DNA from: Pirellulales bacterium
Lineage (GTDB): Bacteria; Planctomycetota; Planctomycetia; Pirellulales; S012-138
Direction of reading: 5' to 3'
Assembly: GCA_028066245.1 (NCBI GenBank)
Contig: JALCBR010000033.1
Location: 1 to 43,030, forward strand
DNA: 43,030 nt
Shown here: positions 637 to 12,604 of the stretch, one piece after another
Layout of the letters: the number at the start of each line of letters is the position of its first letter
How positions within the stretch are numbered: the first letter of the stretch is position 1
Program-made: the position numbers and the translations under genes
Notes under the pieces: generated by a model
What the model saw: only the letters and a program-made list of their open reading frames with translations
The model's database searches: none
What the model was told of the DNA's origin: nothing

Positions 637-2697
637 ATGGAGATGGGGATGGATACCGAATTGCTCCCAGCCGAGCCTGTGGTGCAGTCCGCTGCCAAAG
701 ACGACGAAGGCGCACAAGGCGCAACATGCCGGTCATCGCGGCGCCAGCGCCGATTTGTCATCTGCGGCCTGGCTCTCTTGCTGGCAGCTTGGTTGTTGGC
801 GGCATTTGACGAGGATGTCGATGCGCAGTCGCATGTGATCAGTCCCAACGTCGCCCATCCATTTGATCCCGATTGGCTGGAAGTCCGCTGGATCATGAAT
901 ACCAAGTGCGTGGCGTGCCATCGTGCGAACAGCGAGCGTGCGGATTTTTCGACGCATGCGGCACTCATGGCGGAGCGAGACGGAATGCCGCTCATCAAAC
1001 CGGGCGAACCCGAGGAATCCTGGATATGGCAGTACTGTGCATGGAACGTCCGGGCAGAGTTGGACTCTCCACACGCGGATACGCCCATGATGCCGCCTCA
1101 AGAAGACGAGTGGCTCAGCGACGGGCAGTTGGAAGTGCTCTCCCGCTGGATTGCTCGCGGCGCTCCCGAATACAAGTCGCCCGCCTATGGTCCGGCCACC
1201 GAGCGACCTTTACTGGAGATTGATTTTCCGTCCGCGCGGGAGTGCAAGACATGTCATCCCAAGCAATATGAAGAATGGTCGCGTTCCATGCACGCCTATG
1301 CGATGCAGAGTCCCGCCATGGAAGCTTTCAACCTGACACTCGTGGAGCGCACGGAGGGAACCGTCGGCACGTTTTGCACCCGCTGCCACACGCCACTGGG
1401 AACGGCGATCGGAGAAGACGGGACGTTGAACACCATCCACCGCTCACAACTTTCTCAAGAAGGCGTCACTTGCGTGGTCTGCCACCGCGTGCAGCAGCCG
1501 TATTTCAAGGCGAATACGCGGCATGCCATTCAGCCCGGCGGCGTGTTCGAAGGTTGCATGTTCGGGCCGTTTGATGATCACGTTTCAGCTCAGGAAGGCG
1601 CGCATGATTCGTCCGGTCGTCCCTTTCTCAAGCGTTCCGAGTTTTGCGGTTCTTGCCATGACGTTACCAACCCCGCTGGCGTTCGACTGGAGGAAGCGTT
1701 CAGCGAGTGGCGGAATAGCCCGGCCGCTACGGACGGTGTCACCTGCCAGGCATGCCATATGGGTCCGGTCGCTGGTAAACCGATTCCAGACGACCACCGG
1801 CCGCTGGGCAGGGCGGCGGTTGTCCCAGGTGTTGATCCGGAGCGGATTCCGTTGCGACATCTTTCCGACCATACATTTGCCGGTCCGGACTATTCTCTAC
1901 TCCCGGACACAGAGTTTCCCCACAAGCTCGACTGGATGTATGAAGTCGATTACCGCAACTTCGAAAGTTTAACGCCCTACCAACAAAAGACGCTGATCGA
2001 TTTGCGTAAGAAGAATCGCAAGCAGCTGGAGATTGCCGACGCCAAGCGCTACGAACTACTCCGTAATGGAGCACGGCTGAGCGTCGCCGCGCCGCGCGAT
2101 ATCGCCTGCGGAGACAGCGTTCCTGTCCGCGCAACCGTGCAAAGCACATTTGCAGGCCACAACTATCCGACGGGGTTCTCCGCTGAACGGCAACTTTGGG
2201 TGCAGGTGATTGTCCGCGATCAAAATGGGCGGACGATCTATGCATCGGGTGACCTGGACAGCAACGGCGATCTGCGTGACGACCACAGCTATGAAGTGCA
2301 AACCGGTGCTGCGCGGCATGACCGCGACCTGATGAACTTCCAGAGCAAGTTCATCGCCCTGACGAATCGCGGTACGGAGAGGTCGGTTGTGCTGGCAGTC
2401 AATCGTCACTTGACGCCAATCAGTCTCTTCCGACCGGCCACCGATGCAGCGGCTTCGTTTGGTCGGCCGGGAAGTTTTCGGATTCAGAAGTCCAGCTTGC
2501 CGCCATTTGGCAAAGCCAGCAACACGTATCGATTTGCTGTTCCCCAAGCCGGCGACTACCTTTTGCAGGTCAAGCTTCTCTTCCGGCACTTGCCGCCCAA
2601 GCTGTTGGACGAGATTGGCATTCCCCATCTGAAACCACAGTTGGAAGCGGTTGTCGTTGACGAGTTCGAATCGGTCATTCACGCGCGTCCACGCTAG
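637..2697 (+). CDS. Hexaheme c-type cytochrome, membrane-anchored or secreted
   Basis: This 686-residue protein is a probable extracytoplasmic electron carrier. An Arg-rich segment at 35-39 is followed by a hydrophobic stretch at 40-57, which could be a signal peptide or an uncleaved anchor. Six CXXCH heme sites start at Cys91, 203, 247, 279, 337 and 370. The first lies in a small domain like the cytochrome C domains common in planctomycetes (LIKPGEPEESWIW, then MPPQEDEWLSDGQ). The other five belong to a cytochrome c554-like multiheme module that opens ECKTCHPKQYEEW. From about 480 onward the chain is heme-free and beta-rich, with HNYPTGF, a motif often seen in such cytochromes. ATGs at 643 and 649 are alternative starts, the latter just after a GGGG. 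A beta-barrel gene follows after 26 bp, so an operon is likely. The redox partner is unknown; a nitrogen- or sulfur-cycle role cannot be excluded. Confidence 0.88.
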   Translation: MEMGMDTELLPAEPVVQSAAKDDEGAQGATCRSSRRQRRFVICGLALLLAAWLLAAFDEDVDAQSHVISPNVAHPFDPDWLEVRWIMNTKCVACHRANSERADFSTHAALMAERDGMPLIKPGEPEESWIWQYCAWNVRAELDSPHADTPMMPPQEDEWLSDGQLEVLSRWIARGAPEYKSPAYGPATERPLLEIDFPSARECKTCHPKQYEEWSRSMHAYAMQSPAMEAFNLTLVERTEGTVGTFCTRCHTPLGTAIGEDGTLNTIHRSQLSQEGVTCVVCHRVQQPYFKANTRHAIQPGGVFEGCMFGPFDDHVSAQEGAHDSSGRPFLKRSEFCGSCHDVTNPAGVRLEEAFSEWRNSPAATDGVTCQACHMGPVAGKPIPDDHRPLGRAAVVPGVDPERIPLRHLSDHTFAGPDYSLLPDTEFPHKLDWMYEVDYRNFESLTPYQQKTLIDLRKKNRKQLEIADAKRYELLRNGARLSVAAPRDIACGDSVPVRATVQSTFAGHNYPTGFSAERQLWVQVIVRDQNGRTIYASGDLDSNGDLRDDHSYEVQTGAARHDRDLMNFQSKFIALTNRGTERSVVLAVNRHLTPISLFRPATDAAASFGRPGSFRIQKSSLPPFGKASNTYRFAVPQAGDYLLQVKLLFRHLPPKLLDEIGIPHLKPQLEAVVVDEFESVIHARPR

Positions 2698-10239: not shown

Positions 10240-10413
10240 CTTCGCTGACAAAACCTTCATGTTGTAGGGAAACGTCAGGCTGCCTGTGAACTTCCTCACG
10301 CTCGCGCGTATGCTTGGCCAAATCTCCACTGGCCCGTTGCACTTGCTGTGCGTAACATGGCTGAGTCACACGATTTGCCCAAGATCTAATTCACACTCGG
10401 AGCCAAGACGATC

Positions 10414-10995
10414 ATGCAACGGAATCCTGACATAAGGCCAAGGCCGACAGTGGCCATCGCCGCATTGACTTTGTTGCTGACGACCGCGTCCTGCGGTTCG
10501 GCACAGGAGCACAAACCCGGCATTAAAGTCGGCGATGTAGCGCCGGCAATCGAATTGAAAGACCAAAACGGCAAGGTCATCACGCTCAAGGCCTTGATTG
10601 CGGAAAAGCCCACGGCATTGGTCTTCCACCGTTCAGCCAGTTGGTGACCATACTGCCAAAGGCAACTCGTGCAGTTGCAAAAGGATCAGCAGGCGATCAG
10701 TGACGCGGGCATTCAGGTAGTGGCAATCAGCTATGACTCTGTCGAAATATTGCAGAAGTTTGCTGAACAAAAGGAAGTGAAGTTTCCGCTGCTTTCCGAC
10801 AGCGAAAGCACGGTGATCAAGGCCTATGGAATTCTCAACGAAGGTGCTGGCGGCAGGCAATCCGGCATCCCTCACCCGTGTACATTCATTGTCGGCAAAG
10901 ATGGCAAGGTGAAAGCTTACCTGCCTGGCACAGTGAGAGACCGCCATTCCACTGCGGCACTCCTGGAAGCGGCCAAGAAACTCACTGGCAATTGA
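10414..10995 (+). CDS. Thioredoxin-fold AhpC/TSA-like selenoprotein (UGA at codon 78 read as Sec)
   Basis: A single frame of 194 codons is interrupted only by TGA at 10645-10647. Around it the protein reads FHRSASW-U-PYCQRQL. In cysteine homologues of this AhpC/TSA-related family the pattern is W-C-P-Y-C, so the UGA falls exactly on the first active-site Cys and leaves Cys81 to form U-x-x-C. The rest of the fold is intact on both sides: GDVAPAIELKDQNGK at about 40-54, VVAISYDS, FPLLSDSES, then GIPHPCTFIVGKDGKV. The N-terminus is a signal peptide with a weak lipobox (TASC), so export as a periplasmic or lipid-anchored redox protein is likely. A GGAG lies 11 bp before the ATG. A SECIS-like hairpin follows the UGA and a strong terminator follows the gene. 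The alternative is a nonsense mutation or sequencing error. Confidence 0.85.
10648..10680 (+). promoter_or_regulatory. Candidate bacterial SECIS element
   Basis: Directly downstream of the in-frame UGA, bases 10662-10667 (GCAACT) pair perfectly with 10673-10678 (AGTTGC) around the 5-nt loop CGTGC. The loop begins 21 nt after the UGA, and its second base is G. Both match the general rules for bacterial SECIS hairpins bound by SelB: apical loop about 16-37 nt from UGA, with G among the first two loop bases. The hairpin lies inside the coding sequence, as is normal in bacteria. A competing 4-bp hairpin (TGCC/GGCA) overlaps its left side. Confidence 0.65.
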
Positions 10996-11031: not shown

Positions 11032-11063
11032 AAGCGCCCCGCTTTCGCGGGGCGCTTTTGTTT
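11032..11063 (+). terminator. Rho-independent terminator of the selenoprotein gene
   Basis: A perfect 11-bp GC-rich stem (11032-11042 with 11047-11057) with a TTTC loop is followed by TTGTTT. It begins 36 bp after the stop codon of the selenoprotein frame. This confirms that transcription continues past the UGA to the distal stop. Confidence 0.92.
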
Positions 11064-11146: not shown

Positions 11147-12568
11147 CTATCGGGAACTCTGCTCTACAAGACTGGCAAAAGGATTCACCTCGGCAGATTC
11201 GCCCATGCTGACGGTGAGCGAGATGACACCATTGATTATCGTACCGGCAGTCGTTTGGGGGGTTTGCTCCGGCGTTTTTTGCCCAGCCTGGAGTGTCAGG
11301 ATGTTTGCCGCCGGGGCTGCCGTGGGCGCTTGTGCTCCCTTGCTTTCGGCGGTCTCACTTGCTTCAAAGATGCAAATCCAACGGCGGTCCTTGGCCAAGG
11401 CGTGGTTTCGCAGCACGAGCGCAAATTCAGGCGAGATGCGTTCTCGTGTGCCGAGGATTAGCTCGCCGATCTTGCGGGCGGTTGGTTCCAACCGGGCAGA
11501 GACCAGTTGCAATGCCTGCTGCGATTCGGGCGTTGACCAGTTGCGTTTAAAGGTCGCTCTTAGGCTGTCACGCTCAATCACAACCTCGCGAATGATGCTG
11601 CCGAAGATCCGTTGGAGTTCCGGGTCATCGAGCATCAATGAGAGGTTTTTGCGCAACGCCTGACGAACTTTGGCGTTTTTACCGACATCACGAAGGACAT
11701 TCTTGGTGACGTGGACGAGGTCGTCCGTGTGTGTTTCCAGAATGGGGACGATTTCGCTGTCGACAAACCGCCGCCACTCCTTTTGCGTGTAATTTCGTGT
11801 TGGCAGCAAGGGCGTCTTGTCGTAGACCATTCGCCAGCCGAATCGCCAAAGTGAAACGCGTTCCCAGACTTCCTGACCGATCTGATTGGCCATTGGTTCT
11901 CCGCGGGCGCGAACGATGGGCCAAACCTCTTCCCGCACCAGCGGGATGACGTCTTGAGCGATGATCTCCTGTTGGTACCGGGCGCCAACGGCTCGCAATT
12001 CTTCGCGGTGCTTAGCGAACGCGAACGCGAGTTCGGTCTCCAACGTACGCATGGTCTCTTTGAGCGTGGCGTGTACGATGGGCCAAAGCTCCTGGGCAAC
12101 CTCTTGGTTATGTTCCCGATACGCAGCAACGATGAGTTGTGAAATTTCTTGCCTTTTCTCGTCCGGAAGCATCGTTCTCAACGTGCCGATCAATGACTGA
12201 TCGGCCGAGTAGTATTCAGCGCGGGCAATCGTACCCATCGCAGGCGCGCGCGGATAGAACATGGCATCCGCCGTCTTGACCCAACCACGTCGGCTAGGCT
12301 GCTGGTTCTGAGTCAGGCTCGTGACTTCGCCGATACGGGTGACTTCACCGGATGCGTTGATGTAGAAAATCGGATCGCCGACACCCAGGTCAACCTGTTG
12401 CGGCAGGTTGAGCCGGACCTGTTGGTAGTCGCCGGTGTAATAAGTCCAAATTTCTGAAGCCACACGCTGCGGCTTGGCACTCGCCTGCTCTTTGTTCCAG
12501 GCAGTGAGCAGGCCGAGTACGAGAAGCAGCCAAATGGCGACGCCGGAAAAAATTCTTAGTCCGCGCAT
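11147..12568 (-). CDS. Membrane-anchored helical protein of unknown function
   Basis: This 473-residue protein starts at the ATG at 12568, which has AAGAGAAA just upstream; an upstream frame extension to 12604 is unlikely. One hydrophobic segment at about 5-24 anchors it or serves as a signal peptide. Residues about 35-95 form a small beta-rich domain with LGVGDPIFYINASGEVTRIGEV, which faintly resembles the MCE/MlaD barrel repeat; this is a guess. From about 110 to 400 it is mostly long charged helices, with repeated WPIV segments (ELWPIVHAT, EVWPIVRAR). The C-terminal tail is Ala/Thr/Gln-rich. Gene neighbours give no clue to function. Confidence 0.75.
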   Translation of the reverse strand: MRGLRIFSGVAIWLLLVLGLLTAWNKEQASAKPQRVASEIWTYYTGDYQQVRLNLPQQVDLGVGDPIFYINASGEVTRIGEVTSLTQNQQPSRRGWVKTADAMFYPRAPAMGTIARAEYYSADQSLIGTLRTMLPDEKRQEISQLIVAAYREHNQEVAQELWPIVHATLKETMRTLETELAFAFAKHREELRAVGARYQQEIIAQDVIPLVREEVWPIVRARGEPMANQIGQEVWERVSLWRFGWRMVYDKTPLLPTRNYTQKEWRRFVDSEIVPILETHTDDLVHVTKNVLRDVGKNAKVRQALRKNLSLMLDDPELQRIFGSIIREVVIERDSLRATFKRNWSTPESQQALQLVSARLEPTARKIGELILGTRERISPEFALVLRNHALAKDRRWICIFEASETAESKGAQAPTAAPAANILTLQAGQKTPEQTPQTTAGTIINGVISLTVSMGESAEVNPFASLVEQSSR

Positions 12569-12604
12569 TAGCGTTTCTCTTGAGGGTGTTCGATGGGCGT
12601 ACAA

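Follow-up and report, generated by a model that had tools for sequence, protein, structure and literature searches.

We asked whether the single in-frame TGA of a redoxin-like gene in a Pirellulales bacterium encodes selenocysteine (Sec), or whether it marks a gene that is broken, misread or divided in two. The gene lies in a stretch of 43,030 nucleotides (hereafter the window) that belongs to a draft genome of 4.94 Mb in 186 contigs, 97.5% complete. As argued below from frame, conservation, RNA structure and host gene content, this UGA is very probably a genuine Sec codon in a peroxiredoxin-like redox protein, putatively exported.

An AhpC/TSA-fold gene with one internal TGA

The frame (10414-10992) comprises 193 codons followed by a terminal TGA, and is open, as a preliminary description of this DNA had stated, except for one internal TGA at codon 78 (Table 1). 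This codon takes the place of the first active-site Cys, between W77 and P79-Y80-C81, where more distant Cys homologues (from Alphaproteobacteria and others) read W-C-P-Y-C. In a profile search the protein matches AhpC-TSA (PF00578) with 115.7 bits (cut-off 26) over residues 39-168, and homology is therefore continuous through the TGA; a second domain match is to Redoxin (PF08534, 81.5 bits). By inspection, hydrophobic leaders also start most relatives of the protein, and its own hydrophobic N-terminus suggests export.

A 108-codon ORF starts at GTG 10669 according to the ORF list, and the locus might thus be read as encoding two proteins, one a peptide of 77 residues that stops at the UGA and the other translated from this GTG. 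Yet the Pfam domain crosses the break, relatives retain W-U-P-[YF]-C, and a start at 10669 would drop this active-site motif and fall within the loop of the SECIS hairpin described below. We reject two separate ORFs on conservation and hairpin, and hold this reading to be extremely unlikely. For a sound selenoprotein gene of this kind, automatic annotation would probably either split it or label it a pseudogene.

Table 1. Features of the candidate selenoprotein gene (window coordinates) and further genes with active-site TGA codons in the same genome (contigs).
Feature	Location	Strand	Basis or remark
Putative selenoprotein gene, predicted exported AhpC/TSA-fold UxxC oxidoreductase, 193 residues	10414..10995	+	Terminal TGA 10993-10995; frame, Pfam, alignment
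GGAG 11 nt upstream of ATG 10414, possible ribosome-binding site	10399..10402	+	Read from sequence
Signal-peptide-like N-terminal stretch MQRNPDIRPRPTVAIAALTLLLTTASCGSAQ; Cys27 possibly a lipoprotein Cys, with TASC as an atypical lipobox	10414..10506	+	Sequence inspection
Probable Sec codon UGA (U78), first UxxC residue	10645..10647	+	TGA in 25 genes; TGC/TGT in Cys homologues
C81 codon (TGC), second UxxC residue, at the peroxidatic-Cys position of AhpE/BCP	10654..10656	+	Alignment
Predicted bacterial SECIS hairpin: stem 10662-10667/10673-10678 (GCAACT/AGTTGC), loop 10668-10672 (CGUGC)	10662..10678	+	Folding, comparison, covariation
Terminator-like intrinsic hairpin and T-run, 3' of the gene, before convergent ORF 11147-12604	11032..11060	+	Folding
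Further active-site TGA gene	Contig C77 (L026/L087)		T-U-P-V-C, after HEAT-like region
Further active-site TGA genes, tandem pair	Contig C57 (L093, L096)		W-U-P-P-C and W-U-G-P-C
Further active-site TGA gene	Contig C156 (L098)		W-U-G-C
Further active-site TGA gene	Contig C14 (L101)		W-U-A-G-C
Two deiodinase-like genes with active-site TGA	Contigs C8 (L104) and C52 (L105)		T-U-P-P-F; named from motif alone

The strong terminator proposed after the gene is borne out by folding (11 bp, G+C-rich, -23.8 kcal/mol, z -5.4). The upstream neighbour is an HD-domain gene and the downstream one an ORF that matches no Pfam family; both are unrelated to the selenoprotein gene and give no operon clue. An Rfam search of the window returned no matches. 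Elsewhere in the window (637-2697) lies a gene for a multihaem cytochrome c, cytochrome c554/c7-like, whose match to a planctomycete cytochrome is weak.

Conservation of the UGA codon among relatives

Searching 398 genomes of the same class, we retrieved the window gene and 21 homologues at 44-59% identity, the next group lying at 40% or below. Twenty of the 21 carry a single TGA, at the U78 codon, within W-U-P-[YFHI]-C or a motif close to it, and the remaining one has TGC, which makes 21 of the 398 genomes TGA carriers, the window's included, and a Sec:Cys ratio of 21:1 for the close homologues that the class yielded. Four Acidobacteriota loci (L034, L035, L038, L039) also have TGA and read W-U-P-[FY]-C, for a total of 25 UGA genes and 24 genomes besides that of the window. 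The alignment of homologues, which the preliminary description had proposed as a check, shows that in the close ones position 78 is always Cys or Sec (UGA). No close homologue was found in the four other genomes of the window's family. Lower-scoring matches (29-38% identity) in four genomes (G334, G024, G056, G281) each have one TGA inside.

Family similarity is kept on both flanks of the codon, as had been claimed. Compared with the nearest relative (L055, 59% identical), pN is low both before (0.27) and after (0.24) the TGA, synonymous sites are saturated (pS 0.84 and 0.78, respectively), and the 113 codons downstream of the TGA align without gaps. This pattern indicates that purifying selection acts both before and after the UGA.

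These observations bear on the possibility that the TGA is a nonsense mutation or a sequencing error in a former Cys gene that would now be dead or mis-assembled. TGA is one base from TGC and TGT, the genome is a draft, and the in-frame TAG found off the active site in a PrxQ-like gene of the same genome suggests that broken or misread frames may occur. However, the identical TGA stands at the homologous codon in the 24 other genomes, which upholds the initial argument against chance nonsense, both flanks appear to be under purifying selection, and a covarying hairpin lies just downstream. Conservation of the TGA in practice refutes a pseudogene or sequencing error, which we regard as very unlikely.

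A SECIS-type hairpin downstream of the UGA

A conserved hairpin that was absent from the preliminary description provides independent support for the Sec reading. The bacterial SECIS model (PMC13188914, Fig. 2) specifies a loop of 3-9 nt with G within its first two positions, a stem of 4-16 bp, a distance of 16-37 nt from UGA to loop and a minimum free energy of at most -7.5 kcal/mol. The hairpin of the window starts 14 nt after the UGA and has a 6-bp stem and a 5-nt loop with G second, located 20 nt after the UGA. The minimum free energy fold contains this hairpin in stretches of 46 nt (-9.4 kcal/mol) and 62 nt (-14.2 kcal/mol), and takes another form at 40 nt (-7.2 kcal/mol) and 71 nt. Folded alone, the hairpin is as stable as its shuffles (z -0.05 to -0.43); as single-sequence folding thus gives no significant signal, we used comparative and synonymous-codon tests, and the case for a SECIS element rests on comparison.

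For these tests, amino acids were kept fixed and synonymous codons resampled in 2000 trials. All six pairs form in 24 of the 25 UGA genes (versus ∼3.3 expected, with a maximum of 9 over the 2000 trials), and 148 of 150 pairs are formed altogether (versus 109 ± 4.7 expected), while the 11 Cys homologues show no such excess (34 of 66 versus 33.2 expected); all these counts come from related sequences and do not represent independent events. Compensatory changes (G-C to A-U and C-G to U-A) are seen at two of the six base pairs (19 cells), any shift of the stem partner destroys the pairing in a sliding test, and RNAalifold recovers the same helix, one pair longer, from the alignment alone. The loop reads CGUGC in the window and not GGUUC, the more common form. 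The four Acidobacteriota loci have a 7-bp version with the loop GGU or GGC, and the hairpin thus reaches beyond one class.

Selenocysteine machinery of the host

The preliminary description had seen no sel genes in the window and made its reading depend on finding selB and selC elsewhere in the genome. Both parts stand: the contig of the window (C48) holds none of the best matches, which lie on contigs C97 (selA, 549 bits), C46 (selB, 397 bits), C8 (selD, 293 bits) and C63 (tRNA-Sec, 71.5 bits, also called by ARAGORN as tRNA-SeC with anticodon tca). The host carries every gene needed for Sec insertion. The selD frame (L020, 1396-3915 on the - strand of C8) also contains a pyridine-nucleotide-disulfide oxidoreductase domain and, judged by its domains, looks like the known NDH-SelD fusion (PMC2398784). 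PMC4807772 includes a report of Sec machinery and selenoproteins in planctomycetes.

The same association holds over the class. Genes for selA are found in all 21 UGA carriers (versus 216 of the 398 genomes overall; Fisher p 2.8e-6, a value inflated by the relatedness of the carriers and hence indicative), and selB is likewise present in 21 of 21. A tRNA-Sec was recognised in at least 17 of the 21 carriers, with none for the other four among the matches listed, for which incomplete assemblies may be one reason.

If UGA were reassigned throughout the genome to an ordinary amino acid (e.g., Trp or Gly), the frame would be left open as well. Against this, the present gene and two other window genes terminate in TGA, UGA occurs only at active-site positions in the redoxin genes examined, homologues have Cys at that position, and tRNA-Sec occurs together with SelA, SelB and SelD; moreover, neither a Trp or Gly tRNA with UCA anticodon nor scattered UGA was seen in the sequences examined. 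We reject reassignment on stop-codon use, conservation and hairpin, its probability being practically negligible.

For our main reading, an exported oxidoreductase of thioredoxin fold with a Sec nucleophile that is inserted at the UGA by way of the hairpin and SelB, we estimate a probability of roughly 95%. In the proposed course of events, a translating ribosome would arrive at the UGA while SelB, loaded with Sec-tRNA-Sec and GTP, attaches to the hairpin; Sec would be inserted without termination, giving the 193-residue product. SelA would make the Sec using selenophosphate from SelD.

Relation to known families

Selenoproteins with a UxxC motif and PF00578 or PF08534 have already been catalogued (PMC13188914, PMC9312934, PMC2398784, PMC1794560), as the preliminary description had anticipated, and the window protein, in which the motif reads U78-P-Y-C81, is thus a well-supported addition to a known kind. 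We found no description of this particular branch in the literature searched. Among NCBIfam models, the window protein falls below the cut-off of every one; other members of the family match the same models.

Judged by domain and motif, the nearest described families are the "Prx-like thiol:disulfide oxidoreductase" (PF00578, UxxC/UxxU; PMC13188914 Table 1, PMC1794560), itself listed as predicted (PMC13188914), and the "Redoxin family" (PF08534, UxxC; PMC13188914), which has the same domain as "Prx-like 3" of PMC2398784. With the former (representative WP_010940744.1, likened by domain and motif; compare "Prx-like 1", PMC2398784) the window protein shares the AhpC/TSA domain, UxxC at the same kind of site, a UGA with downstream hairpin and the existence of Cys homologues. 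The latter (representative HEU0032618.1, likened in the same way) is akin in its UxxC and through the Redoxin match, but PF00578 fits the window protein better.

Three further groups are more remote. The selenoprotein peroxiredoxin TxxU (PMC13188914) shares fold and domain, but its Sec replaces the peroxidatic Cys, whereas in the window protein Sec would occupy the Thr position three residues before this Cys, which is kept. SelL-related redox proteins (NF040769) belong to the same superfamily, and every member of our family alignment A2 matches this model with E ≤ 0.001, but the window protein scores 53.8 bits, below the cut-off of 120. ResA/TlpA CxxC oxidoreductases also have a redox pair spaced by two residues before the same helix, likely export, and Pro at the cis-Pro position; unlike in ResA (match of 63.9 bits, cut-off 170), Sec would replace the first Cys.

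Active site and candidate function

In the predicted model (pLDDT 88) a helix begins at residue 79 with U78 directly before it, a modelled placement that resembles thioredoxin-fold active sites. Among solved structures, the AhpE and BCP peroxiredoxins are nearest. On alignment to AhpE and BCP/PrxQ, C81 takes the peroxidatic-Cys position and U78, three residues earlier, that of the Thr of TxxC, where BCP-type chains have Thr or Ser. The UxxC motif and thioredoxin fold of the preliminary description thus stand, with the refinement that the peroxidatic position belongs to C81 and the Thr position to U78. Pro155, invariant throughout this protein family, stands opposite the Arg of AhpE in the alignment, and in the same genome TlpA-like proteins likewise have a proline there. 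The TxxC and catalytic Arg of canonical peroxiredoxins are thus both replaced, by Sec at the Thr and Pro155 at the Arg, and the protein seems closer to an oxidoreductase of the thioredoxin/TlpA type built on the scaffold of a peroxiredoxin than to a plain peroxiredoxin.

Since U78 occupies the Thr position and Pro155 replaces the AhpE Arg, we favour with moderate confidence a thiol-disulfide oxidoreductase working through a U78-C81 selenenylsulfide. The two residues would form this bond and then be reduced in turn by a redox partner, as in CxxC thioredoxin/TlpA proteins, and the likely task, which is a guess, would lie outside the cytoplasm, either in the exchange of thiols and disulfides or in detoxifying peroxides or oxidised thiols by reduction. 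A true selenoprotein acting instead as a peroxiredoxin, reducing peroxide by C81 or U78, would agree with the closest solved folds and with the alignment of C81 to the peroxidatic Cys, and Sec enzymes commonly have peroxidase activity. Yet this role has to accommodate both Sec in place of the TxxC Thr and a proline, as in TlpA-like proteins, where AhpE has its conserved Arg, and we consider it possible but rather unlikely.

Further TGA-containing genes and a Cys relative

The genome has 24 matches to PF00578, of which eight, this gene included, contain a single internal TGA, always at the active site; the further genes with active-site TGA are given in Table 1. For the gene on contig C77 a similar hairpin at the same distance is possible by eye, but the predicted lowest-energy fold differs. 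We also observed an in-frame TAG near the start of the PrxQ-like gene mentioned above (G000:C42:7830-8261, L084/L025; 153.8 bits to PF00578), for which possible reasons are an error in sequencing, disruption of the gene or a start codon farther downstream.

The sole close Cys homologue (L056, in genome G094) has TGC at locus position 1672. It keeps a perfect SECIS-type hairpin, which distant Cys homologues lack, and is placed inside the Sec group of the tree, and its genome still has selA, selB and tRNA-Sec. Since the hairpin is retained and the gene nested among Sec genes, L056 has most likely changed from Sec to Cys, and this hairpin-keeping relative offers a compact, testable case of such a change.

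With "selenoprotein-rich" defined as six or more selenoprotein genes (PMC5029168), the gene counts suggest that the window's genome is likely selenoprotein-rich. Whether the family extends to a class-wide exported UxxC redoxin subfamily with Sec as its standing state, in a genome that has eight or more selenoproteins of thioredoxin fold, seems to us an evenly balanced proposition. If true, the host would be selenoprotein-rich in the sense of PMC5029168, probably outside the three phyla named there, and the UxxC redoxin subfamily would be one that no NCBIfam model claims. The gene also indicates a lineage rich in selenoproteins that has numerous Sec redoxins.
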